Source: a virus. From it: a stretch of DNA of 49,796 nucleotides. The notes below the pieces were generated by a model. That model was given only the letters and a program-made list of their open reading frames with translations. It was not told where the DNA came from and did not search any database. Position numbers and translations under genes: made by a program. The stretch covers positions 1 through 49,796 of the IMG/VR virus record IMGVR_UViG_3300020020_000048, one strand, 5' to 3'. Of this stretch, positions 3,440-48,143 are shown in pieces. Numbering within the stretch: the stretch's first letter is position 1; each line of letters starts with the position of its first letter.

Positions 3440-6400
3440 TCAGCGACTCGCCATCACGGCGGCACGGTTGACGATCTGATGGCTGACCGCGACCGGGTCG
3501 GCGCTGGCCGGGGTGATGGTCATGTAGTTGTTGACGACCTTGCCCGGGCCGCCCGGGAGGGCCACAGTCTGACCGTCGCCACGCAGCAGCTCAGCGAAGT
3601 GGCGCACGCTCGGGTCGACGCGGTTGAGCGGCAGCTGCAACGGGACCAGCGCTTCGGCGTAGCCGCGCTCGCCCACGTTCATGTGGCGCGGCCCGGTGAT
3701 CATCGCTCCGGTCATGCCACCCGGGCTGCCGTTGTTGACGAAGTTCGTGGTCACGGTGACGGTCTTGCCGTTCGTGTTCTCGATGGCCCGGTCCAGGTCC
3801 CGCACCGCTTGCAGCCCATAGACGTTGGCGCTCACCGACACGGTCTTGCCGTGCAGGCCGTTGATGGCGGAGTCGAGGTTGTCGACCGCGGTCTTCGCCG
3901 CGCCAGCGCCGATCACCGACACGTTGGGCGTGGCGTTGGTCCGGTCGAGCTTGTCGAGGGCCCGCTGGAGGGTGTCGATGTTCATCTTCAGCCCCGAGTA
4001 GCTGGGCATCTGCACGCGCGGGGTGGCGGTGGTCCGGCCGAGCTTGTCCAGCGCGGTCTGGAGGGTCTTGATGTCCTTCTCCACGCCATCGGCGCTGGGC
4101 AGTTCGACCTCGGGGGTCGCCGTGGTGCTGCCGAGATCATCGACGCCACCCTGGAGTCCCTCGACATCGCCCTCGACGTCGGGGATGGTGGGTGCCGCGA
4201 CGGTGGGCTCGCCACGGGTGGTGTTCAGCCCTTCGACCAGACCCTTGAAGCCCTCCACGTCGGCCATCGCGGGGTCGATGCCTGCGGCCTCGAACTCGGT
4301 GATGACGGGGTTGCCCGCGGCGTCGTAGAGCAGCGTCAGGTTCTCGGCGTTGAGCAGCGCGTCGATCATGCCGGGCGTCTCGACGATGGTCTGGACCAGC
4401 TCGGGTGTGCCGATCAGGGAGGTGATGAAACCGTCGACCTCTTCCTTGCTGATGCCGAACTGGGCACCGGTCTCGACGAGCGTGTTGCGCATGGCGGCGA
4501 GGTGGGTGTTCATCTCGCCCGCGGCGACCCCGTCTGCGGTGGCCGCGATGGCGTAGGCCAGCATCTCGTCGACGCCACTGCGCATGGCGTCGCGGAAGCC
4601 CAGCGCGGCCTCGGTGGTGCCGAACACGGCCTCCAGTCCTGACCCCACCTTGGGCAGTGCTTCCTCGCCGGTCTCCTTGAGCTTCTCGTTCAGATCGTTG
4701 ATCGAGGTGTAGAAGGCATCGAAGGACTCCTGGGCGGTGAGCCCGGTGCCGAACAGGATGTTGAAGGCCGAGGTCAAGGCATCGGCGGCGGTGGATGCGT
4801 CGCGTGACGCGTTGCCGATGCCGATGAGTCCATCCACGACGGACTGGGTCATGCCCATCTCGACGGCCAGCGCTCCCGCGGCGCGCTCGGTCGCGCCCTT
4901 CAGCTGCTCCTGCGCGCGGTAGGTGTCCATCGCGGCCCGCTGCGATTCCTTCAGGGCCTGGGCTTCGGCCTCATGCGCGGCGGTGGCCTCGGTGATGACC
5001 CCGGTGATGATCTCGTAGCTCGACGCTCCGGCCAGGATCGCGGCTGCTGAGTCGTCGGCCGCGTTGGTGTGCTCATCCAGCAGGCGGACGTACTCCTCGT
5101 ACAGCGGCACCACGCCAGCCGCGATGTCCCCAGACTTCTGCGCGGCCTGGGCCTGGGACAGCAGCGCCTGCTCGGCCTCGGTGCCGGTGCTCGCCACGTC
5201 GAGGAACTGCTGGGCGATCTTGTCGAAGTTCGTGTTCTCGGCCTGGTCCTGGGTCTCCTCCATCGCCCCGTACAGCTTGACCAGCTCGTCGCGGGGGATG
5301 CCGGTGGCGTCGGCCAGATCGGTCAGCTTGTGCCCCAGAACAGTGGCGGTGCCTTGGGCGCTGGACATGTTCTCGTCGGTCGAGTTGACGATGTTGGCCA
5401 GTTCCTTGGCCGCGTCGGCGGGCAGGCCGTAGCCCTCGGCCAGCCCTTGCAGGGTGCTGATCGTGGAGTCGCCCTCTTCCCGCATCCCCATCAGCACGCG
5501 CGTGGTGTCCTCGATGCCCAGGGAGGCGTCGCCTGCGCCGCGGTTGATGGTGGCGAAGGAGTCCATCAGCTTCTCGCCGCCCTCGCCGGTCTCCGCGATC
5601 GACTTGTTCAGGGCGTCCATGCCAGTCGCCGCGCTGTTGGCGCCATCCCCGCTGAGGATCATGGCGTCGACGTTGTTCTGGAGGGCGGTGGTCAGCTCCC
5701 TCGTCCGCTCCTCGACCTCCTGCGACTTGCTGCTGAAGGAGTCGTAGGCGACCATCGCCACCGCGACAGTCGCCGCGATGGCGAGCCAGATGCCGCTCGT
5801 GAGGGTCATGGCCTTCATGGCCAGGCTGATGCCTTGGATGACGCCCTTCATCTTGAGGCCCACCGCGACGACCACACCGAAGGCGCCGACGATCTCCAGG
5901 AGCGCCGGGCTGATGTTGCCCAGTGCCTCGACGAGCGGGCTGATCGCGGCCAGCAGGGTCGAGATGGCCGTGATGGTGCCGAGCTGACCGAACAGGTTGA
6001 TGATCTCGGCGATGACCGGGATGGCCTGCCCGAGGGCCTCGCCCAGCCCCTCGAAGCGCCCCATCGTGTCCGGCGTGACGAGGATGTCGAAGGCCTCCTT
6101 GAGCCCATCCAGCACGGGCTGGAAGGCAGCGATGGCGTCCTTCCCGCTCTGGAAGAACTCGGTCAGCGCGTCCTGCCCGCGGGCGCTCTCCAGCCATCCG
6201 TCCCAGCGCTCGATGATGTTGTTCAGCGCGATGACGAAGCCGTCCCCGCTGTCGGCGCCCGCCTCGAAGATGGTGGCCAGCAGGTCACCGGTCGACTGGA
6301 GCAGCGCACCCCAGGCGCGCAGACTGTCGATGCCCTCGTCGAGGAACGTCTGGATGCGGTTCTGACCCTGGCTCGACGACACGAAGTCGCGCAGCTGCTC

Positions 6401-7747
6401 GGCGGCCCGCTCGAACATCTCGGCCAGCCGCTCAGCAGCGGGAGCAGCGGCCCGCAAGAAGGGCTCCGTGGCCTGAGCCAGCGCGGTCATGCCATCGAAG
6501 GCGTCGTCCAGCGCGGGGTCGAGCTCGCCCATCATGTCGGCGAAGTTCGTCTCGCGGGCCACCCCGGCCATCTGGCGCCCGAACTCGTTGACCGAGTCCG
6601 CGGCGATCTGGAGAGCAGCGGACATGTCGGGGATGGTCTCGTCGGCCATCGACGCGATCTCGTCGGCGAAGCCGCGGAACAGCTGGGCCTGGACGTCCTC
6701 GCGCAGCTGGCCCAGCTCGTCACGGATGTCGGCGAAGGCCATCGCCGCGGCCTGCGCCTCGGGGGCGAGGTTGCGGAAGGCGGCGCTGGTCTGGATCAGC
6801 GTCCGGTTCATCGGACGCCCCTCTGCGTTGGCCAGCGCGAACTCGTCGTTGACCACGCTCAGCGCGTCACCGAAGCCCTGCGCGCCGACGATCCCCGAGG
6901 CCAGAGCGGTGCCGAGCCCAGCGACCAGCGGAGCGGCCGCACCAGCAGCCCCGCCCAGCGCGCTGATGGCGGACGAGATGACCGACGTAGCCGAGGCGGT
7001 GACCCCCGACAGTCCGGCGGCCAAGGCATCGCCCATCGACAGCACGGCCGCGGCGATCCACTTGCCGTCGCTCATGCTGCCGCCGAAGCTCTTGCCGAAG
7101 TTGGTCCCGGCCTTGCTGCCCGTCTCGTCGAAGTTGCGCTCCAGCAAGGCGTCGGCCTTGGCCTTCGATGCGCGGTCGATGTCGACCTCGACGTCAGCCT
7201 CGATCGAGTCCATGTTGGCGTCGATGCGGGCCTTGGATTCCTGCACCGAGGCCATGTCCGGGCTGACGGCGATCGTGGCCTCGATGCCGCGCACGATGTT
7301 CTCGATCTCGCGCTCGGCGCGCCGGGCCTCCTGCTCCTGGAGGTCCACTCCGATCACGGCGTCGATCTGGTCGACGAACCGGCGCTCCAGGTCAGCCTCG
7401 GCGCGCTGGGCCTCGACGTCATCGAGCGTGACGCCGACCTCGGCCAGCAGGTCGTCCAGCTTCTCTTCGATCTGCCGCTCGACGCGGGCCAGGTCGCCGC
7501 GCTCGACCTGCACGCCGACCTCGGCCAGGAGGTCGTCGAGCGACTTGTCGATCTGCTGCTCGGTCTTGCGGAGCGAGCCCTTGTCGACACCGACCTCGAC
7601 GTCCGCCTCGACGTCGTCGAGGGCCTTCTCGATCTCGGCCGCTGCCGCCTCGCCGCCGGTCTTGCCCGCTCGCTTGAGCTGAGCCTTGAGCTGAGAGGTG
7701 TCAGCGTCGACGGTGACTTCGATGCTGCCAACCGACCGGGCGGCCAC
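3440..7747 (-). CDS. Tape measure protein
   Basis: This is the longest gene (1435 residues), directly downstream of the tail assembly chaperone pair, as expected for the protein that sets tail length. It starts at GTG behind a strong GGGAGGTGAG site. Residues about 1-200 are charged coiled coil built of a roughly 38-residue repeat (IeekLDDLLAEVGV and variants). The middle has Ala/Gly-rich hydrophobic stretches (about 225-290 and 600-680) that fit membrane insertion at genome ejection. The C-terminal part has about four copies of a ~36-residue repeat (DIKTLQTALDKLGRTTATP and variants), then an NNY...ITP tail. At about 1.5 A per residue this implies a tail near 215 nm. Confidence 0.93.
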   Translation of the reverse strand: MAARSVGSIEVTVDADTSQLKAQLKRAGKTGGEAAAAEIEKALDDVEADVEVGVDKGSLRKTEQQIDKSLDDLLAEVGVQVERGDLARVERQIEEKLDDLLAEVGVTLDDVEAQRAEADLERRFVDQIDAVIGVDLQEQEARRAEREIENIVRGIEATIAVSPDMASVQESKARIDANMDSIEADVEVDIDRASKAKADALLERNFDETGSKAGTNFGKSFGGSMSDGKWIAAAVLSMGDALAAGLSGVTASATSVISSAISALGGAAGAAAPLVAGLGTALASGIVGAQGFGDALSVVNDEFALANAEGRPMNRTLIQTSAAFRNLAPEAQAAAMAFADIRDELGQLREDVQAQLFRGFADEIASMADETIPDMSAALQIAADSVNEFGRQMAGVARETNFADMMGELDPALDDAFDGMTALAQATEPFLRAAAPAAERLAEMFERAAEQLRDFVSSSQGQNRIQTFLDEGIDSLRAWGALLQSTGDLLATIFEAGADSGDGFVIALNNIIERWDGWLESARGQDALTEFFQSGKDAIAAFQPVLDGLKEAFDILVTPDTMGRFEGLGEALGQAIPVIAEIINLFGQLGTITAISTLLAAISPLVEALGNISPALLEIVGAFGVVVAVGLKMKGVIQGISLAMKAMTLTSGIWLAIAATVAVAMVAYDSFSSKSQEVEERTRELTTALQNNVDAMILSGDGANSAATGMDALNKSIAETGEGGEKLMDSFATINRGAGDASLGIEDTTRVLMGMREEGDSTISTLQGLAEGYGLPADAAKELANIVNSTDENMSSAQGTATVLGHKLTDLADATGIPRDELVKLYGAMEETQDQAENTNFDKIAQQFLDVASTGTEAEQALLSQAQAAQKSGDIAAGVVPLYEEYVRLLDEHTNAADDSAAAILAGASSYEIITGVITEATAAHEAEAQALKESQRAAMDTYRAQEQLKGATERAAGALAVEMGMTQSVVDGLIGIGNASRDASTAADALTSAFNILFGTGLTAQESFDAFYTSINDLNEKLKETGEEALPKVGSGLEAVFGTTEAALGFRDAMRSGVDEMLAYAIAATADGVAAGEMNTHLAAMRNTLVETGAQFGISKEEVDGFITSLIGTPELVQTIVETPGMIDALLNAENLTLLYDAAGNPVITEFEAAGIDPAMADVEGFKGLVEGLNTTRGEPTVAAPTIPDVEGDVEGLQGGVDDLGSTTATPEVELPSADGVEKDIKTLQTALDKLGRTTATPRVQMPSYSGLKMNIDTLQRALDKLDRTNATPNVSVIGAGAAKTAVDNLDSAINGLHGKTVSVSANVYGLQAVRDLDRAIENTNGKTVTVTTNFVNNGSPGGMTGAMITGPRHMNVGERGYAEALVPLQLPLNRVDPSVRHFAELLRGDGQTVALPGGPGKVVNNYMTITPASADPVAVSHQIVNRAAVMASR

Positions 7748-7784
7748 TTCTCACCTCCCTCGGCTCAGGTGCTGGGCGGAGATG

Positions 7785-8446
7785 TTACGTGGCCGACGCT
7801 GCGGGGTCACCCACCGCCCTGGGTGGGGACACGCCGAAGGCGGCGGCGAAGGCCATGAACGCTTGGCCATCCTGCTCAATCTCAGCCTGCGTGACGACCG
7901 AGTGGTCGACGAACTCGCTCATCGGCAACGGGAACGGCCGGGCGAGGTCCATCTTGAAGTGTTCGACGTCCTTCACGCGCTGCACCGACCACCAGTAGAC
8001 CGCGTTCAGGAGGCGGTCGAATCCGAGTTGGAAGTAGTCGACACCGCGGCCAGCTGCTTCGCCGTCGATCGCTTCCCAGTGGCTTGCCGCGATCCCGACG
8101 AGGTGGGCGGCCGTTTCGTAGGGCGGGCAGACCACTCCTCGATGAGGTACTGGACGACCTCGATCAGCACGGCCACGTCGAGCCCCTCGTGCAGCTGGTT
8201 CTCGATCTGCTTGTAGGCGTGGTCGTCGAGCACCGCGGCCAGGAAGTCGAACATGGCCCGGACCCCGGCCGTGCCGCCCTCGTACTGCTTGGCGAAGAAC
8301 AGCGCCAGCTGGCCGGTGGTCGGCGCGTGGGCCACCATCTCGGCGAACTCCCCTTCGCGCACCTCGAACTCGAAGTGGACGTCGACGGGGTTGTTGACCG
8401 CCCCCGTGCCGCGACGAGCTGCGGTCCCAAACTGCTTCATGGTCAT
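7785..8446 (-). CDS. Tail assembly chaperone, -1 frameshift fusion product (G-T type)
   Basis: The first reading frame (start 8446) overlaps a second frame that stays open to a stop at 7785 and lies in the -1 register. The second frame encodes a plausible protein segment (AAHLVGIAASHWEAIDG, then FDRLLNAVYWWSVQRV) with no good start of its own, immediately before the tape measure. This is the conserved G/GT arrangement of siphophage tail assembly chaperones, where a fraction of ribosomes slip back one base. Possible slip regions are ACGAAAC (8119-8113) and TGGGAAG (8078-8072), but neither is a classic heptamer, so the exact slip site is unproven. The fusion would be about 219 residues. Confidence 0.75.
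8006..8446 (-). CDS. Tail assembly chaperone, unshifted product (G type)
   Basis: This is the 146-residue zero-frame product, starting at ATG with GGGGAGG six bases upstream. The N-terminal ~100 residues (VHFEFEVREGEFAEM, then IENQLHEGLDVAVLIEVVQYLIEEW) match the general form of actinophage chaperone G proteins. As in that family, the end is a low-complexity Ser/Thr/Arg tail following WSARPTKRP. It would coat the tape measure during tail assembly together with the frameshifted form. The downstream frame shares the first part of this gene, so this entry and the fusion are two products of one locus. Confidence 0.8.
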   Translation of the reverse strand: MTMKQFGTAARRGTGAVNNPVDVHFEFEVREGEFAEMVAHAPTTGQLALFFAKQYEGGTAGVRAMFDFLAAVLDDHAYKQIENQLHEGLDVAVLIEVVQYLIEEWSARPTKRPPTSSGSRQATGKRSTAKQLAAVSTTSNSDSTAS

Positions 8447-8469
8447 AGATGACCTCCCCGCGGGGGACT

Positions 8470-9009
8470 CTACATATCCACGCGGGCCGCGATCCCTGCC
8501 GACCCCAGCACGGCCACCGTCGCCTTGCCCAGGATGTGCTCACCGGCACGGGCCGCAGTCTTGCTGCCGACCCGCTTGGGAAGGGTGTCGACGCGGGCGT
8601 TGAAGGCCAGCTCGCCGCGCGACAGCGGCCGGTCCTCGCGGCTGACCTTGCCCGGGCCACCGATGCGGACGATCGCCCCCCCGTAGGCGCTCCACGAGAA
8701 GATTTGCATCTTGCCGCTGCTGGTGCGCCCCCACTCGACGTAGACCGCATGGTTCTGGCCGTTGGTCACGCGACAGATGACGTGGTGTCCGCTGGAGCCG
8801 CGCCGATCCCAGTCCCAGCTGGCCTTCAGCCGTCCGACGTCGCCGCCACGGTGGAGAGCGTTCTCCGGGTCATTGATCGGGCTGGTCGCCTCAGCGATGC
8901 TCTTGATCTCGCTCCCCACCTCATCGCGCCAGCGGAACACCCCGCCTCCGGGTGTGTTGAGTGCGGTGATGATCGCCCGGTCGGTGATCTTGACCCGGAC
9001 CGAGGCCAT
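8470..9009 (-). CDS. Neck/tail-completion type protein
   Basis: This 179-residue protein begins MASVRVKITDRAIITALN. Its ATG overlaps the upstream stop (TGATG), which rules out the longer upstream extension of the frame. Size, position just before the chaperones, and an N-terminal helix followed by basic beta-rich sequence fit the minor structural proteins at the head-tail joint (HK97 gp10-like or tail completion proteins). A C-terminal segment (KRVGSKTAARAGEHILGK) is helical and basic. The family is not certain; the assignment rests mainly on gene order. Confidence 0.55.
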   Translation of the reverse strand: MASVRVKITDRAIITALNTPGGGVFRWRDEVGSEIKSIAEATSPINDPENALHRGGDVGRLKASWDWDRRGSSGHHVICRVTNGQNHAVYVEWGRTSSGKMQIFSWSAYGGAIVRIGGPGKVSREDRPLSRGELAFNARVDTLPKRVGSKTAARAGEHILGKATVAVLGSAGIAARVDM

Positions 9010-9515
9010 CAGAAGACGTCCAGCGGCAGGTAGGCGATCCAGAGCCCCCCGACGCATCCCCCCGCAGGGCCGGACGGCTGGTAGGACTCGACGGCCAGGT
9101 CCAGCCCGCAGCACTGGAGGGCGAGGTACAGGGCCCGCGCGTCGAGCGCCTGGCGGATCGTCACCTCGGCCATCACCGCCGGGGGCACCAAGTTGCCGTC
9201 CTGCGGGGTGGGGAAGCAGCGCAGCGCGCCGACCTCCACGGCCAGCGCCAGCGGGCGGGCGCAGCGCTCGTCGACCACCGCGGTCGGGAAGGCGTCGTAG
9301 GGGAAGATGGTCCCGGCGCGCACGTAGCCCATCCCGCACGTGTCGGTGCCGCACTCGCCGCAGTACTCCCACGAGGCCGAGGCCCCGGGGTGCAGCCCGC
9401 ACCAGCACGTCTCCCCGGCGCCCTCGTTGGCGAGCATCGTGCAGACGCACTCCGAGAGCTGGAGCAGGGAGCCGACGATGGAGGGCATCGGCAGGACGGG
9501 CGGGTCGATGCTCAT
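9009..9515 (-). CDS. Cys-rich head-tail connector/tail terminator candidate
   Basis: This 168-residue protein has about eleven cysteines, among them CVCTM, CWCG and CGECGTDTCG in the first 65 residues and LQCCGLDL near the C-terminus. The remainder looks like an alpha/beta virion joint protein (PAVMAEVTIRQALDARALYLAL). It is translationally coupled to the next gene and sits two genes upstream of the tail chaperone, where the tail terminator is usually found. The cysteine density matches that of several other structural proteins of this phage. Function is inferred from position; no catalytic motif was found. Confidence 0.5.
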   Translation of the reverse strand: MSIDPPVLPMPSIVGSLLQLSECVCTMLANEGAGETCWCGLHPGASASWEYCGECGTDTCGMGYVRAGTIFPYDAFPTAVVDERCARPLALAVEVGALRCFPTPQDGNLVPPAVMAEVTIRQALDARALYLALQCCGLDLAVESYQPSGPAGGCVGGLWIAYLPLDVF

Positions 9516-9522
9516 GGCCGCA

Positions 9523-12500
9523 TCATCCCACCGGCTCGGTCAGGCGCCAGTCGACAACGTCCCTGCCGTTCCAACGCATGCTGACGACCTCCTGGCCATT
9601 CCACCATCCGGTGATGGTGTCTTGGCCCGAGAAGCCCGAGGCGGTCAGGACGAACCGGTAGGGGACGAGCACCGACGACCCGGTCACGCGGCGCCCGGAT
9701 GCGCTGATCGTCTCGACGTAGACCAGCGCCGCGGTGCCCCGCTGGACGCGACGCCCGGTGGCCGTGACTGCCCAGGTGTGGGTGATGACGCGCGATCCCT
9801 TGGGCACGCGGCGTCCGCTGGCCGTGGTGTCCCACGAGTGGTTGAACCGCGCCGTGCCCTGCTTGACGCCGACCTCGGGGCTGACGCCCTGGGCGTTGAG
9901 GTGCCAGTTGACAGCGACGGTCTGCGCGCCCTTGGAGGTGCGCTTGCCGACCCCGGTGGCGGTCTCGGTCCAGGCGAAGGAGGCGGAGCCGGTCTTGGCG
10001 CCCACAGTGGGACGGACGCCGCTCGCCGTCACCGCCCACGTGTGGTTGATGGTTCGCGAGCCCTGCGAGGTCCGTCGACCGAGCGCGGTGGTGAGCGCGT
10101 TCCACGTCAGACCGACGAACCCGCTGACCGCCTTGCGACCTGCCGCGGTGACGGTCTCGGACCAGGCGACGATTGCCTCGGCGCGGGACTGGCGCGTGCC
10201 CGCGGCGGTGGTGTGGGCGTTCCAGTTGACGGCGGCCGAGCCCTGGTTGACACCGACCTGCGGAGCTACGCCGACCGCGGTCATCGTCCACGTGTGCGCC
10301 TCGATGACGATGGCCCTCGGCTGCCGCTTGCCGACCGAGGTCAGCGTCTCCAGCCAGGACGCGACGACGGTGGCCTTCGGTGTGCGCTTGCCCGCCGCGG
10401 TGGCCGTCTCCGACCACGCGAACGCCGCGCTGCCCTCGCTCGGCTCGGTTGGTGGCGGAGCGCTGCTGGGAGCGATGGCGACGAGCAACCCCACGACCCG
10501 CTCAGCGCCGGGCGTCCCCGGCATCGTCGGCACCAGCGCACCGGTCGAGACACCAGCGGAGGTGGGGAACGTGATGACCAGCGACGAGAAGAAGCCGTCC
10601 TCCGTCGCGTCGTACAGCTCGGTCGTCGTGGCGGGGGCGGTCCACCCGGAGCCGACGTCGCCGTTGTAGATGCCGATGCCGAGCGTGTTGCCGCTGACTG
10701 GCGTGAGGGCCACCGAGGGGCCGGTGTTGTTGCCACCGACCAGGTCCCACGCCACCGCGTGCGAGTCGATCGGTGTGTCCGGGTTGAACGTGCCCGCCTC
10801 GATGGGAACGACGCAGACCTGGGTCGAGCCGTCCGAGCCGAACGTGTATGACGTGGGCTCGCCGCTGGCCGCGACGACGTGCCACCAGAACCCGTAGGCG
10901 TTGCTGCCGCCAGGCGCGTCATCGCGCGAGACGAGCGTCCATGCTGCCGGAGCGGTCATGCGACTGATGGCGGCGTCGATGTAGAAGCCGTCGTGCCCGC
11001 GGCTGAACCCCAGGAGCAACGTGCCCGCCACCCACTCGGCGCGACGAGTGACGACGACGGTGCTGGCGAAGGCCTCGGCCACCGAGGGAAACGCCAGGTA
11101 GGTCGGCGGCTCGGATGGCTCGACTGATGGGGCGGGGGCGAACACGACGATGACGCCCGCGGCCTTGGCGGACGTGTCGCTCGGGATCACGCCTACCGTG
11201 GACGTCGGCGCATCCGGGATGGACGCATCGGCCGTGGCGAGCATCAGCGACGTCGACACCCCGGTGATCTCGTCCTCGACGGTGTATCCAGCGCCGACCG
11301 CCCAGTTCGAGAGGGTGAAGGCGTAGCCACCAGCGAAGATCAGCCCGAGGCCATCGGCCACGGTCGGGTCGACCGAGGGCATGACCAGCGGGGTCGTGGC
11401 GTAGTGGCTGGTGCGGTGCTCACCGATGGCGGCGATCGGGGTGTCGGGGTGAGCGCCCTTCAGCACGGCCATCATCAGACGCCCTGGCCCGAGGTCAGCG
11501 TCCGGGTAGGTCATCGTGTGCGTGGCCGGTTCGGACGCCGCCACGGGCACGTGCTTGATGTAGAAGCCGTAGGCCTGCTCGAAGAACGTGGCGTACTCGA
11601 CGACGTCGGTGAACCCAGGGATGCCGATGTTGGCCAGGACATCGGTGGCGGTGTTGTCGCGGAAGTACCAGGCGACCAGGTGGTCACCATCCTCCAGGCC
11701 CGCGGGCGTGGTGATCGTCTTGGCGTTGGTCGGGTTGATGACGACGTTGCCCAGCGTCACGTCGCTGCCCGAGGGGGGATCGGGTGGCCTCACGCCCGCC
11801 GCTGACGCCGACCAGGCGTGGTTCACGGAGACGGCTGCGCTGAACCCGGGCGCGGCCTGGAGGACCGCGCACATGACCACCCAGTCGGCGGCGACCGCGG
11901 TGACGTTGTAGGTGATCGTCGCGTTGGCGGTGGGGACCTTGTACTGCCCCGCTGCGGTGACGCAGTTGGCGTCCGTGCCGCTGGTGGCGCTGCGAGCGAG
12001 CACCTGCGCGGACCATGAGCTGCCACCGCCCGTGTCGGAGTCCCCGGTGATGGTGCCGCGCGTCTCGTTGGCGATCATGCCGAGCACGAGGTCGCCCGCC
12101 AGGATGCCCGCGAACGCCTGCGCCGATGCCGCCGTGGCCGTGCCGGTCATCCCGATGGCCGCCGCGCGCGGCGTGTTGTCGGCTCCGATGAACGACTCCG
12201 CGTACGCGGCCTTGTGGGCCACCGCACCGGACAACGTGATCGTGATCGTGCTGCCCGCCGGGCGCGCCACTGTGGCCTTGGTGGCGAACATGCCACCGGC
12301 CACGCCCGCCGCCGCGGTCGAGCTGAATCCTGCTGCCTGGCGCAGGACGGTGTAGGTGTTGCCGCCGTCCGTGACGGTGAACGTCGGCGTCGTCCCGCTC
12401 AGGTTGTCGGAGGCCACCCGAACGACGACGAGGTCACCGACGTCGATGGCTCCCGTCGTGGTGATCGTGACGGTGGTGCCCGACGAGGTGGAGAGGCCGC

Positions 12501-19955: not shown

Positions 19956-20360
19956 TCAGGTCACCGTGAAGGCGGAGTTGTTGGACTCTTCGGGACCCTG
20001 GCGCACGGTGAACTGCTTGGTCCCGGCCGTGGTCGGGTCGTAGCTCGTCGTCAGGCGGGTCTGGTTGACGTAGGTCGTCGGCACAGCCACGTTGTCGATC
20101 TCGATCACAGCGGTCGGCAGGAAGTCCGATCCGTTCACCGTCACCGTCACCGCACCGGCCGCCGCGGCGACCGTGGCGGGCGAGAGCGAGGCGATCCGTG
20201 GATCGGGGACAGCACCGGGATCACCGACGTCGAGGCGACCCCACCCACCGTGGCCGGGGGCGGTCGTGCCGTGGTTGGCATGGCGAGTCGCCCAATCCTG
20301 AACCCCGTTCTGGGTGTTCGGAACGAGGTTCGTCACCGTCTGGTTGGTGAGGTCGGACAT
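19956..20360 (-). CDS. IPT/TIG immunoglobulin-like head decoration protein
   Basis: This 134-residue protein has an N-terminal ~55 residues with NGVQDWATRHANHGT and a Gly/His-rich segment. The rest is an IPT/TIG-type Ig-like domain (PRIASLSPATVAAAAGAVTVTVNGSDF pattern with paired strands and ending in FTVRQGPEESNNSAFTV). Ig-like domains of this type decorate phage heads and tails and can bind cell-surface sugars. It lies between the maturation protease and the capsid gene, so a head fibre is the likely role. Its ATG (20360-20358) shares a CATG with the divergent methyltransferase start. Confidence 0.65.
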   Translation of the reverse strand: MSDLTNQTVTNLVPNTQNGVQDWATRHANHGTTAPGHGGWGRLDVGDPGAVPDPRIASLSPATVAAAAGAVTVTVNGSDFLPTAVIEIDNVAVPTTYVNQTRLTTSYDPTTAGTKQFTVRQGPEESNNSAFTVT

Positions 20361-21048
20361 GGCGTCACCGTACTCTCGGCAGATGGGCAGACCCGTTCTC
20401 CTGGATCTGTTCTGCGGCGCGGGCGGCGCAGCGATGGGCTACTGGCGCGCCGGGTTCCGCGTGATCGGGGTCGACATCGCGCCCCAACCGCACTACCCCT
20501 TCGAGGTTCGCCGGGGCAACGCCCTGTGCCCACCGATCGCCTTGCACCACGTCGCCGCCGTGCACGCCAGCCCCCCCTGCCAGGCGTACTCGGTCGCCAA
20601 CAACATCCACGGCAACGACCATCCCGAGCTCATCGAGGCCACGCGCCAGATGCTCCAGGCGAGCGGCCTGCCGTACGTGATCGAGAACGTGCCGGGCGCG
20701 CCGCTGCGCGATCCGGTGCGGGTGTGCGGGCGGGCGCTCGGGCTGTCGGTGAAGCGCCACCGCTACTTCGAGTCCAACGTGACGCTCACGGGGACCGAGT
20801 GCCCACCGGGGCACATCGGTGGCTGGCTGTCGGTGTACGGGAACACGGTGATGACGCGCGGGAAGGTCATCGGGCGGGCCAAGGGCGGAGGGCCGCGTGT
20901 CCACCGCGCCCACGTCGAGCACCACTACGGCCGCACCGCAATGGGCATCGACTGGATGGACGCCAACGAGCTGTCGGAGGCGATCCCCCCGGCCTACACC
21001 GAGTGGATCGGCGCCCAGGTCATCGCGACGCTGAGGCCTTCTCCTTGA
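20359..21048 (+). CDS. Cytosine-C5 DNA methyltransferase
   Basis: This 229-residue protein has ATG 20359 with GAGG six bases upstream; 20383 (MGRPVLLDLF) is an alternative. The motifs are in order: I DLFCGAGG (16-23), IV SPPCQ with catalytic Cys74, VI ENV (99-101), VIII RHR (123-125) and X IPPAYTEWIGAQV (199-211). The short length and small target-recognition region are typical of orphan phage enzymes. It would place 5-methylcytosine in phage DNA, either for protection or as the substrate of the TET/JBP enzyme at 46511-47518. It is inserted against the direction of the late operon, with its end overlapping the maturation protease gene by 29 bp. Confidence 0.9.
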   Translation: MASPYSRQMGRPVLLDLFCGAGGAAMGYWRAGFRVIGVDIAPQPHYPFEVRRGNALCPPIALHHVAAVHASPPCQAYSVANNIHGNDHPELIEATRQMLQASGLPYVIENVPGAPLRDPVRVCGRALGLSVKRHRYFESNVTLTGTECPPGHIGGWLSVYGNTVMTRGKVIGRAKGGGPRVHRAHVEHHYGRTAMGIDWMDANELSEAIPPAYTEWIGAQVIATLRPSP

Positions 21049-44542: not shown

Positions 44543-45547
44543 ATGCCCGCTGTCGACCACTGGCGCATGTTCGCCGAGTTCTGCCGCTACGAGAAGGCGG
44601 TCGGTGGGCCGAGTCCGCACGCTGCGATGGTGGCGGGGATGATCCGTGGTCTGCCGGTGCAGGAGCAGGTCTGGCGAGTGGGCTGCTACGGGGGCGTCTA
44701 CAACACAGGCGGAGCGCTGGCGCTGTGGACGGCACTGAGCCGCGAGTCGGTGCTGGGGATGGGCGAGCCCGCGCTGCGCGGCTGGCTCAAGGAGAACTGG
44801 GAGGGCCTGCCCTTCCGCCGGGAGCGCCGCGCTGTGCGAACCCCGGAGAAGCTGGCCCGCTACCTGTACTCCTACGCCCTGTACTCGCGGGACTGGCCCG
44901 ATCGGGACTGGTGGCACGGTGCGGCCTCTCGGGCCAACTACGAGGCCGGGTGGCACGACGTGCTCAGCGTGTACGGGGTCGGCCGCTACATCGCCATCCG
45001 CATGTTGGAGCTGTTCTCCCGCTCGGGAGCGGGGACAGCCTCCTACGACATTCGCGCCCTCGACGCATGGTCACCGCGTCGCACACTCTCACTGCTCTGG
45101 CCGCATCACACGCAGATGCTCAGCCGCGACCTCTCGCGCCAGGCCGCAGCGGGCACGGAGAAGATCGCCAACACCACGCTCCAGCGCCTGCGCGATGAGT
45201 TCGGTGTCGAGCTGAGTCACTACGAGCTGCAAGTGATGACGTGCGAGTACCGCCAGTCGATCGAGAAGCGCCGCCAGTACCCCGGCCGGAGCATCGACAG
45301 TGAGGACCGCTACTTGCGCGAGATCACGCCGTACTGGGGCGCCCCCGTGGCCGAGCCTGGGTGGCGCGTGCGCCGCGAGCTGTTCCCCGAGGTATCGCTG
45401 GGTGAGCTCAACGGGTGGCAGGGCGCACGGGATGAACTGGGGACGGTGGCCGCGGTGCACGGGTACACGTGGAGCGACCTCGTCTACGACTACAAGGCCA
45501 CCACGGACCTGGCGCACCCGGCGATGCGCGTCGAGGTGCACACGTGA
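44543..45547 (+). CDS. HhH-fold amino acid:DNA transferase / aGPT-pyrophosphorylase-like protein
   Basis: This 334-residue protein starts at ATG 44543. N-terminal FAEFCRYEKAVGG and the block WRVGCYGGVYNTGGAL (44-59) are characteristic of the phage families predicted to displace an activated 5-substituent on modified bases (aGPT-pyrophosphorylase and ADDT clades). Residues about 131-158 (HDVLSVYGVGRYIAIRMLEL) are the helix-hairpin-helix of their DNA-glycosylase-like fold. It would join an amine or amino acid to a phosphorylated hydroxymethyl base. It faces a P-loop kinase and TET/JBP dioxygenase less than 2 kb away, the expected partners. The clade is by recognition, not a run search. Confidence 0.75.
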   Translation: MPAVDHWRMFAEFCRYEKAVGGPSPHAAMVAGMIRGLPVQEQVWRVGCYGGVYNTGGALALWTALSRESVLGMGEPALRGWLKENWEGLPFRRERRAVRTPEKLARYLYSYALYSRDWPDRDWWHGAASRANYEAGWHDVLSVYGVGRYIAIRMLELFSRSGAGTASYDIRALDAWSPRRTLSLLWPHHTQMLSRDLSRQAAAGTEKIANTTLQRLRDEFGVELSHYELQVMTCEYRQSIEKRRQYPGRSIDSEDRYLREITPYWGAPVAEPGWRVRRELFPEVSLGELNGWQGARDELGTVAAVHGYTWSDLVYDYKATTDLAHPAMRVEVHT

Positions 45548-46029
45548 AGACGCTGATGTACGACGTGGGCGACGGGCGCCTGTTCATCGGGCCACATCTG
45601 CTCGACGTGCCCGACGAGGCCAAGCGTGCCGCGGTCAGCGCGCGCCGGATCACGATGGTCGTGAACCTGTGGCGACGTCGCGACGACGAGTTGGCCCTGG
45701 CGGTCACTCGCTACCACCACTTGCCCCTGAGCGACGGGCTGCTCAGCGACGAGCTGTTCGCGCGCTACGACGGCATCGCCCGAGTGGCGGCGAAGCACCT
45801 CGACGAGGGCGGGAACGTGCTCGTGCAGTGCTACGGAGGACGCAACCGCAGCGGCCTGTTGGCCGGGCTCATCACGTGCTGTTGGCGCGGGGTCAGCGGA
45901 CGTGAGGCCGTGGCCGCGGTGCGCGCCGGGCGTGGTGTCTCAGCGCTGAACAACCGTCACTTCGCCACCTGGCTCGAATCGCTCCCCGCCTTCGACAGCA
46001 CGTCGGCGAACTGCTCGGCGAGCAAGTAG
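45544..46029 (+). CDS. Dual-specificity-phosphatase-like protein
   Basis: This 161-residue protein starts at GTG 45544, overlapping the transferase stop (GTGA). NVLVQCYGGRNRSGLLAG gives the CX5R loop with Cys96 and Arg102; the usual preceding His is Gln. Asp64 in PLSDGLLSD is placed for the general acid. The early LFIGPHLLDV and MVVNLW strands fit the fold. In this operon a substrate such as a phosphorylated DNA base or a nucleotide is possible, but a protein substrate cannot be excluded. Its 3' end overlaps the convergent kinase gene by 73 bp. Confidence 0.75.
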   Translation: MKTLMYDVGDGRLFIGPHLLDVPDEAKRAAVSARRITMVVNLWRRRDDELALAVTRYHHLPLSDGLLSDELFARYDGIARVAAKHLDEGGNVLVQCYGGRNRSGLLAGLITCCWRGVSGREAVAAVRAGRGVSALNNRHFATWLESLPAFDSTSANCSASK

Positions 46030-46514
46030 GCGGGCATCGTCCCGTCGAGCGTCACCACCTCGCGCCACTGCACGAGGTTGCGGACCTTGGTCGCTCGCCC
46101 CTTCCACCACGACTCGTCCTGCACGGGCCGGTTGAGCCCTCGGGCACGGACGGTGGCGCGCCAGCGCGCGTACTCCAGCGGGGTGTCGAGGTGGACGAGC
46201 GTGAGGTTGGGACAGGCGTCGAGGAACCCTGCGTTGGCGAGGCGGTCACCCTCCCCCACCAACAGCTCGCACTCGGTCTCGATCTCGCTCAGCCAGTGGA
46301 TCGCCTTGGGCTGGATGCTCATCGAGAGCGTGTCGGTGCCGCCGAAGTCGGGCCGGGGCTTGCCGATGTGCCAGAGCCCTCCGTAGCGGACGTGGGGCAC
46401 GGGCACGTCGAGCACCGGGGTCCCGAGCATCCCGGGCATCAGCATCGACACCGCTCGTTCGACCATCGTCGTCTTGCCGCTGCCGGGCAGACCGATGACG
46501 TAGACGACGTTCAT
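45957..46514 (-). CDS. P-loop kinase, candidate hydroxymethyl-base DNA kinase
   Basis: This 185-residue protein starts at ATG 46514 (MNVVYVIGLPGSGKTT), with Walker A GLPGSGKT at 8-15. A later LLVGEGDRLANAGFL and a lid-like RARGLNRPV-ESWWKGR segment fit small nucleotide-kinase-like P-loop proteins. In phages with hypermodified thymine a kinase of this size phosphorylates 5-hydroxymethyluracil in DNA to create a leaving group. Coupling to the dioxygenase (ATGA) and opposition to the transferase support that role here. A nucleotide-level kinase is the alternative. Confidence 0.75.
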   Translation of the reverse strand: MNVVYVIGLPGSGKTTMVERAVSMLMPGMLGTPVLDVPVPHVRYGGLWHIGKPRPDFGGTDTLSMSIQPKAIHWLSEIETECELLVGEGDRLANAGFLDACPNLTLVHLDTPLEYARWRATVRARGLNRPVQDESWWKGRATKVRNLVQWREVVTLDGTMPAYLLAEQFADVLSKAGSDSSQVAK

Positions 46515-47518
46515 GCGTACTTCCGTGGCTTGCGAGAGGGCTGCCAGCCGGTCGCTCGCTTGTCCTCGGCCTCGGTGGCCTCGACGGCGGCGCGCTGGGC
46601 CTCCTGGGTGGGATCGGCGCAGCACTTCCGCATCCCGACCTTGGCGTAGGTCACCAGCGAGTAGCGGAAGGCCGCCGGGTGGGTCATCGTCATCGGGGTC
46701 ACGCCGTGGACGATCGACTGGCCGTCGAAGATCGTGATCGAGCCGTGGGGCACGCTCAGGTAGGTGTCGTAGTCGGCCAGGTGCAAGTAGCCCCCAGCGA
46801 CCTGCCGCCGACACACGAGCATCGCGCTCCATGAGGAGGTGACGTTCGACTGGTCCTTGTGATACGGCAGCGAGACGGTCTTGTTGATGATCCCGCTGGA
46901 CCACGGGGTGCCTGCGATGAGCCAGGCCGGGGCGATCGCATCGCGCACCTTGCGGGCCGTGATGTCGTGGACGTCGCTGGCGTTGGTGCGGAAGACGTGC
47001 TCGGCCACCCGGCAGAACTGAGCGATCTGGTCCATCGCCCTCGGGTACTCGGTGTTGAACTGCGACCGCGAGCACCCGTAGCGCCGACGCATCGGCACCG
47101 GAGGCTGGTAGCCAAACGTGCGGTGGGTCACGGCCATCCCGTTGAGGCGCGAGGTGGTGGTGACGTTGGCGAACACCTGGTCGTCCCACTTCACCTGGCT
47201 CAGCGAGGACGCCAGATCGGTGGCCAGGTCGGTGGCGCAGACCATGTGCACGGCGACGACCTTGCCGGTGCCCTCGTCGACGATGGCCACGTTGCTGTCG
47301 ATGACACGCGCGCCCACCGCGGGCGCCGGAGCGTGCGACTTGACCAGCCGGTGACCGCAGTTCGGGCACAGGTGCTGTGGCGCGTAGGGCACCCACGCAC
47401 CGCAGCTCTGGATGCGGCGGTTCCAGCGGTCCTTCAGGCCTTCGGCGTAGGCGCAGGGAACGAGGGGATCACCCCGCGAAAGCGTCAGCCGCGGGATCGA
47501 AACCGTTTCCCTCTGCAC
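46511..47518 (-). CDS. TET/JBP-type 2-oxoglutarate/Fe(II) DNA base dioxygenase
   Basis: This 335-residue protein starts at GTG 47518. The double-stranded beta-helix core has PYHKD (iron ligands His220 and Asp222), FDGQSIVHGVTP (distal His271) and RYSLVTYA with Arg285 for 2-oxoglutarate. KTVSLPYHKD, YLHLADYD and HGVTPM together mark the TET/JBP branch. The N-terminal part has CPNCG with Cys39 and Cys94 as possible zinc ligands. It would oxidise 5-methylcytosine or thymine in DNA to the 5-hydroxymethyl base. The gene is coupled to the kinase gene downstream and overlaps the ParB-like gene upstream. Confidence 0.85.
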   Translation of the reverse strand: MQRETVSIPRLTLSRGDPLVPCAYAEGLKDRWNRRIQSCGAWVPYAPQHLCPNCGHRLVKSHAPAPAVGARVIDSNVAIVDEGTGKVVAVHMVCATDLATDLASSLSQVKWDDQVFANVTTTSRLNGMAVTHRTFGYQPPVPMRRRYGCSRSQFNTEYPRAMDQIAQFCRVAEHVFRTNASDVHDITARKVRDAIAPAWLIAGTPWSSGIINKTVSLPYHKDQSNVTSSWSAMLVCRRQVAGGYLHLADYDTYLSVPHGSITIFDGQSIVHGVTPMTMTHPAAFRYSLVTYAKVGMRKCCADPTQEAQRAAVEATEAEDKRATGWQPSRKPRKYA

Positions 47519-48143
47519 GGAAGCCCTCCAATGCTTCTTGCACGAGCCGCTCGACCACCTCGGCGTTCGTGTCCATCCCCCACACGGTCCGCAACGTAGC
47601 CAGTCCCTGGGCGACGGGCTCGTAGCGACTGAACTCGTAGGGCAGGATCAGGCTGCGGATGTCCAGCTCGTTGTAGGCGTCGATGCGCTCCTCGGGCACC
47701 ACGCCCTGGCGGATGCCGCCGACGATGGTGTCGGCCTCGACGCTCTGGAGCAACAGCTCGTAGGCCGCACGGTCGTAGCCCGTGCCATCCAGGCCCTCGC
47801 TGTCGACCAGCGTCTGGAGCAGTGAGAACAGCTGCTCGTCGTCGTAGAAGGCGAGGTCGGACGTGCGGTTGTCGGCCAGCAGGATGCGCGTCGCGGTCTC
47901 GTCGTCGCAGTCCACCCAGAAGCCGGGGATCGTCGCCATCCCCTCTTCGCTCATCACCCGGAAGCGCGTGTTGCCCGCGATGATGTTCCCGGTCGAGCGC
48001 TGCACCAGCACCGCACCGAAGAAGCCGTTGCGGGCGATGGACTCACCGACCGCTCGGTCGTCGCCCTTGCGGGGGTTGTCGGGGTGCTCGTGGATGCCGT
48101 CGATCGGGATGGCCGGATCGAACTCCTGCGCTAGCTGCTTCAA
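47469..48143 (-). CDS. ParB/Srx-domain protein
   Basis: This 224-residue protein starts at TTG 48143 behind AGGAG, overlapping the upstream stop. Residues about 10-90 are a ParB N-terminal (sulfiredoxin-like) domain: HPDNPRKGDDRAVGESIARNG, VLVQRSTGNIIAGNTRF and DNRTSDLAFYD. ParB-like proteins are repeatedly linked with phage TET/JBP enzymes, where they may act as nucleases, nucleotide-dependent clamps or site selectors. The C-terminal half is helical with no clear helix-turn-helix. It overlaps the dioxygenase gene by 50 bp, indicating joint expression. Confidence 0.8.
   Translation of the reverse strand: MKQLAQEFDPAIPIDGIHEHPDNPRKGDDRAVGESIARNGFFGAVLVQRSTGNIIAGNTRFRVMSEEGMATIPGFWVDCDDETATRILLADNRTSDLAFYDDEQLFSLLQTLVDSEGLDGTGYDRAAYELLLQSVEADTIVGGIRQGVVPEERIDAYNELDIRSLILPYEFSRYEPVAQGLATLRTVWGMDTNAEVVERLVQEALEGFRAEGNGFDPAADAFAG

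Follow-up and report, generated by a model that had tools for sequence, protein, structure and literature searches.

Gene content of the locus

The window is the whole record of the virus IMGVR_UViG_3300020020_000048 (49.8 kb), in which genes for a TET/JBP-family dioxygenase, a P-loop hydroxymethyl-base kinase and an ADDT-family base transferase are adjacent (Table 1). By sequence and gene context this locus is a TET/kinase/ADDT base-hypermodification cassette, in which the TET/JBP dioxygenase probably generates the hydroxymethyl base. The ParB-like gene beside TET is a standard neighbour in such cassettes and also adjoins TET in L001, L002, L005, L012 and Tonitrus. The C5-cytosine methyltransferase-like gene elsewhere in the record has orthologues in two relatives (71–73% identical), which likewise match PF00145 weakly. 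Because of this conservation TET may act on 5-methylcytosine, and the methyltransferase-like gene is a possible supplier of that base, the link between the two being inferred.

Table 1. Genes of the cassette and a possible accessory gene in the 49.8-kb window.
Feature	Coordinates	Strand	Evidence
C5-cytosine methyltransferase-like gene, start uncertain	20314–21048	+	weak PF00145 match
ADDT-family base transferase, long clade	44543–45547	+	PF18724 (1.8e-6, over the cut-off), alignments, tree
DSP-type cysteine phosphatase (PTP), 161 aa	45544–46029	+	CX5R motif, Pfam, profile, fold
P-loop hydroxymethyl-base kinase (Ploopntkinase3)	45957–46514	-	PF18751 (3.3e-19)
TET/JBP-family dioxygenase	46511–47518	-	PF12851 (2.1e-10)
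ParB-like protein, start codon uncertain	47469–48143	-	PF02195 (4.2e-6)

The PTP gene starts with a GTG codon that overlaps the ADDT stop (GTGA, 45544–45547) and is preceded by GAGGTG, and its 3' end shares 73 bp with the convergent kinase ORF. Both the coupling to the transferase and the overlap with the opposite-strand kinase gene, as described in the earlier note, were thus borne out. Searches of 50,697 phage records by tblastn with the ADDT and PTP sequences of the window and of L003 returned no match, which leaves the PTP without a close cultured relative in that collection, and an ADDT profile search of genome contigs yielded no relative. In Caulobacter phage Cr30 (L034, positions 10054–10599) the base kinase bears the annotation terminase small subunit, as does PHROG_800, a family to which the window kinase matches too.

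Fold and catalytic residues of the phosphatase

The window PTP matched PF00782 (DSPc) with an E value of 8.7e-7 and 29.3 bits against a Pfam cut-off of 33.5 bits, which six of its relatives exceed, and a family profile of 14 relatives retrieved solved DSPs (archaeal TkPTP, human DUSPs) at 1e-14 to 1e-12. Its AlphaFold model (mean pLDDT 91) was best matched among solved structures by DUSP28, mouse 2hcm, DUSP14, VHR and TkPTP, with VIA-align Z values of 18.3 for DUSP28, 17.9 for TkPTP and 16.4 for PTEN. Estimates of dN/dS were about 0.20 for the L003/L022 pair and 0.09 for the L021/L023 pair, indicating that PTP relatives are under purifying selection. Together, the PF00782 E value, the family profile, the model fold and the dN/dS values place the match beyond chance. 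By sequence and predicted fold the protein is a member of the cysteine/DSP phosphatase superfamily, and we infer that it is a catalytically active phosphatase. DUSP28, DUSP14, VHR and TkPTP have their fold and catalytic motif in common with it at 19–27% identity, but its gene context points away from protein substrates. PTEN, the PTP-like phytases and the RNA triphosphatase of capping enzymes belong to the same superfamily and act on inositol phosphates or RNA ends; they serve here as functional analogies only.

The CX5R motif reads QCYGGRNRS and comprises Gln95, Cys96 (45829–45831), Arg102 (45847–45849) and Ser103. Asp64, within SDG, aligns with the general-acid Asp of TkPTP in the profile alignment and is likely to be the general acid of the window PTP. 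CX5R is intact in all 39 nonredundant relatives, two of which carry Ala for the final Ser, and the residue preceding Cys is His, Gln, Leu, Met, Tyr or Phe. The suggestion that Gln in place of the usual His alters substrate preference therefore did not hold up: this position varies freely among relatives, and Gln95 is not special. The PTPs of L063 and L064 have the P-loop variant HCIAARDRA, without the usual Gly and Ser. Those of L003, L021, L022, L023 and L027 read SPSxVP, with Ser or Pro at the position of the general-acid Asp and CX5R intact; judged from these residues, this hydroxymethylase-type subgroup would need an alternative acid or a more readily departing leaving group.

Linkage of phosphatase and transferase in relatives

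All relatives found via the PTP carry an ADDT gene next to or near it, plus a kinase gene. To avoid the circularity of this PTP-based search, we also seeded searches with ADDT alone, and the PTP adjoins ADDT in nine of nine records found in this way (the second ADDT query comprised five sequences, of which L003 itself came from the PTP search). Seeding with inositol-1-phosphate synthase (Ino1) alone gave 35 loci with a long-clade ADDT, in 33 of which the PTP follows ADDT, while the remaining two lie on contigs that break off within ADDT or immediately behind it. When whole records were searched, DSPc had a single match per record in all 14 with a long-clade ADDT and none in eight comparators (Tonitrus, MakoManhole, Margaery, Altadena, Serendipitous, L012, Ps15 and Cr30). 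The earlier view of a CX5R phosphatase-like protein tied to base-modification genes is thus supported by DSP fold and linkage alike, and co-occurrence with such genes, which had been named as the check on it, is near absolute in relatives.

In L001 the ParB, TET, ADDT, PTP and kinase genes lie on one strand, and in the window kinase and TET are on the opposite strand; the ADDT–PTP pair survives rearrangement. The PTP start overlaps the ADDT stop in several loci. PTP, ADDT and kinase are a fixed module of one subtype of base-hypermodification cassette. An ADDT–PTP fusion considered for L026 was ruled out, as the two genes are in different frames. A TET-associated glycosyltransferase gene is located between ADDT and PTP in L019 (9216–9968) and L020 (1370–2215), which suggests a further sugar on the adduct.

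Association with inositol-1-phosphate synthase and a second phosphatase

Ino1 (myo-inositol-1-phosphate synthase, PF01658, 1e-35 and better) was identified in the records of six relatives (L003, L021, L022, L023, L024 and L027); where the genes were read, it immediately or closely precedes ADDT in these hydroxymethylase-type cassettes. In the same six, where the contig is long enough, a ThyA-like enzyme that presumably acts as hydroxymethylase takes the place of TET, and the gene order in these proteobacterial-type phages is Ino1-ADDT-phosphatase-kinase-hydroxymethylase. Genes for nucleotide-level hydroxymethylases and a YfbR-like nucleotidase accompany the PTP module. The virus-wide search seeded with Ino1 alone recovered 80 loci, 33 of which have the order Ino1-ADDT-PTP-kinase (one of them as ADDT-PTP-Ino1-kinase), some of these contigs being near-copies of each other. 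Ino1 accompanies all 33 PTP loci of this Ino1-seeded set, and all 38 Ino1 loci devoid of ADDT lack the PTP. The window itself is without Ino1, as PF01658 had no match in the whole record.

Other Ino1 loci encode a small HAD-motif protein (DxDG, T, K, EDD) that adjoins Ino1 or sits within about 1.5 kb of it. Across the 80 Ino1 loci plus Cr30 and Ps15, this protein is present in eight loci with a Cr30-type ADDT and 20 without ADDT in view, so that 33 loci have the DSP, 28 the HAD-type protein and none both. In other Ino1 cassettes the DSP is replaced by this unrelated HAD-type phosphatase; because each of the two follows one ADDT lineage, their mutual exclusion amounts to few independent events. 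The HAD model (pLDDT 93) is closest to the 3'-phosphatase of T4 Pnkp, a nucleic-acid enzyme, and PHROG links the protein to polynucleotide kinase/phosphatase. A further 18 Ino1 loci without ADDT showed neither phosphatase; some are at contig ends and about half have ample flanks.

Cr30 gp118 belongs to the HAD family, as does a Ps15 protein whose annotation is phosphoribosyltransferase; Cr30 gp120, also considered as the Cr30 phosphatase, was rejected for having no motif or family match. In the Stenotrophomonas phage Ps15 (L033, 7001–8736), a Menderavirus, Ino1 and the HAD phosphatase lie beside queuosine-type genes, and an Ino1–ADDT pairing in Menderavirus was dismissed given that Ps15 has no ADDT match. 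GT4-type glycosyltransferase genes were observed beside Cr30-type ADDT and Ino1 in L111 (4412–5563) and L100 (3205–4284).

The cassette of the cultured phage Cr30 consists of TET, ADDT, TAGT-like, Ino1, HAD and kinase genes. It resembles the window in having ADDT, kinase, TET and a phosphatase, and its Ino1 is linked to base-modification genes; it differs in that the phosphatase is of the HAD type and the record has no DSPc match. Cr30 gp129 (NC_025422, 1706–3034) bears the annotation SNF2 DNA repair protein and has a Tet_JBP match (8e-21); gp123, beside the TAGT-like and Ino1 genes, is an ADDT (1e-52).

Cassettes without Ino1, transferase phylogeny and hosts

Actinophages such as Tonitrus and MakoManhole carry five-gene thymidine hypermodification cassettes of ParB, TET, aGPT-Pplase2/ADDT, 5-hmU DNA kinase and a DAO-like enzyme (PMC11955845). 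They share ParB, TET, ADDT-family transferase and Ploopntkinase3 with the window but differ in their separate ADDT clade, the DAO-like enzyme and the lack of a PTP in the whole record. Neither phosphatase was detected in six viruses that have ADDT and kinase but no Ino1 and lie outside the long clade, namely Tonitrus, MakoManhole and L012 (whole records searched) and LittleMunchkin, Kozie and phiA8-29 (a few kb near ADDT searched), and the PTP is absent from the searched region of L122, a hydroxymethylase/ADDT phage. The DAO-like enzyme is found in Tonitrus, MakoManhole, LittleMunchkin and L012, the last of which also has a GNAT. The L012 locus (6329–10513) has the order ParB-TET-ADDT-GNAT-DAO-kinase; its TET is closely related to that of the window, and its tailoring genes differ.

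In the ADDT tree, a quick tree with some open forks and two long branches, the TET-type lineages without Ino1 (the window clade; L025; L026; L019 with L020) nest inside the Ino1 clade. They occupy up to four places there, and all retain the PTP. The simple reading of this nesting and retention is that Ino1 was lost and the same donor chemistry kept.

Host hints, which stem from identities of 30–50% and are weak, are in line with this reading. The window terminase is nearest to those of Arthrobacter phages (46–49% identity), so the host is likely actinobacterial, and the L025 terminase is nearest to those of Streptomyces phages. The polymerases of the Ino1-bearing L003 and L024 are nearest to those of Pelagibacter/gammaproteobacterial and Rhodoferax phages, i.e., proteobacterial. 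Among the control genomes, Ino1 matched in Corynebacterium and had no match in E. coli and Caulobacter. Ino-1 feeds mycothiol synthesis in actinobacteria, and in Corynebacterium it carries out the first step committed to that product (PMC6528642).

Putative role of the phosphatase

We favor the reading that the PTP is an active DSP-type phosphatase of a distinct TET-or-hydroxymethylase/kinase/ADDT subtype that dephosphorylates inositol for base modification, with a probability of about 0.5. It is preferred because PTP, ADDT and kinase form a fixed module, Ino1 is part of the relatives' operon, the HAD-type protein replaces the DSP in other Ino1 cassettes, Ino1-less cassettes outside the clade showed neither phosphatase in the stretches searched, the Ino1-less lineages that keep the PTP are nested in the tree, and the host hints agree. 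The inositol role of the PTP, its substrate, the order of the steps and inositol on DNA are all read from gene context. The hydroxymethyl pyrimidine would be made by TET in the window and by the ThyA-like enzyme in relatives, and the P-loop kinase would phosphorylate it, a reaction known for 5hmdU (PMC6449724, PMC7653180). The ADDT-like enzyme would then exchange the base phosphate for inositol or inositol phosphate, and the PTP would strip the phosphate group either from free inositol phosphate before transfer, supplying free inositol, or from DNA-bound phosphoinositol after it, neutralizing the adduct. In this catalysis Cys96 would attack the phosphate, Arg102 hold it and Asp64 protonate the leaving alcohol. 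Where the host does not synthesize inositol, the phage would bring Ino1 along, and phages of actinobacteria, the window virus probably among them, could use the inositol phosphate that such hosts make themselves.

Action before and after transfer appear nearly equally probable. Inositol monophosphatases are generally present in bacteria, and it is thus not evident why a phage would need its own enzyme for free inositol phosphate. We lean slightly to DNA-bound phosphoinositol because the PTP is kept where hosts own such enzymes and because the HAD protein has nucleic-acid kinship. Besides these bacterial monophosphatases, several points speak against the inositol reading: the window has no Ino1 and its probable host is deduced from terminases, the HAD protein resembles a nucleic-acid enzyme, the nearest solved folds to the predicted PTP model are protein phosphatases, the putative general-acid Asp is replaced in the hydroxymethylase-type subgroup, and 18 Ino1 loci without ADDT showed neither phosphatase.

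The phosphatase opposite a base kinase had been proposed to edit unreacted phospho-bases, recycle a nucleotide intermediate or remove pyrophosphate. Its place in a base-modification cassette stands, but generic editing or pyrophosphate removal is weakened because ADDT and kinase cassettes without Ino1 should need it too, and those outside the clade have neither the PTP nor the HAD protein in the sequence searched. The association with Ino1, moreover, suggests another substrate. Editing, by which the PTP returns unused 5-phosphomethyl (or pyrophosphoryl) bases to hydroxymethyl bases, would fit a gene coupled to ADDT and placed between it and the kinase. Among CX5R enzymes are RNA 5'-triphosphatases, which dispense with a general acid; such chemistry would suit the Asp-less subgroup. 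DNA with phospho-5hmdU blocks restriction and reportedly lowers in vitro transcription (PMC7653180), and a pyrophosphoryl intermediate builds up in a PhiW-14 mutant (PMC5977210). Even so, editing leaves both Ino1 and the HAD replacement in other Ino1 cassettes unexplained, and we consider it unlikely. Rather improbable is that ADDT attaches another phosphorylated nucleophile, e.g., phosphoserine or phosphoethanolamine, that the PTP unmasks on DNA. The Pfam name of the transferase, amino acid:DNA transferase, and the tailoring enzymes (DAO-like, GNAT) borne instead by Ino1-less cassettes agree with such a donor, which is nevertheless superfluous where an Ino1 in the same operon supplies a specific phosphorylated metabolite.

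Because nucleotide-level hydroxymethylases and a YfbR-like nucleotidase accompany the module, the PTP could hydrolyse pyrophosphate or a modified nucleotide released in the pathway, yet it is also part of TET-type post-replicative cassettes and is missing from the searched region of L122, which makes this housekeeping function very improbable. The chance that the PTP dephosphorylates proteins, either of the host or the modification enzymes themselves, seems similarly slim: its nearest solved structures are protein dual-specificity phosphatases, but neither the fixed linkage to ADDT and kinase nor a HAD protein in its place would be expected of an effector of host proteins.

Implications for phage DNA modification

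Extended beyond the window, the inositol reading would imply that phages decorate bases with myo-inositol or a derivative, that long-clade ADDTs transfer inositol (phosphate) to kinase-activated hydroxymethyl pyrimidines, and that a DSP- or HAD-type phosphatase is obligatory; to this general scheme we give somewhat less than an even chance. The literature searched contained no description of a cyclitol DNA modification, and an earlier mention of the PTP/Ino1 neighbourhood is possible. Even if the donor is not inositol, the constant presence of a phosphatase in one such subtype opens a missing step of the pathway to direct testing. If the inositol reading is true, phage DNA would carry a cyclitol and the ADDT family would not be limited to amino acids. 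It would also explain the presence of Ino1 in some tailed phages, offer a gene signature for predicting the ADDT donor, and provide new enzymes for labelling or protecting DNA.
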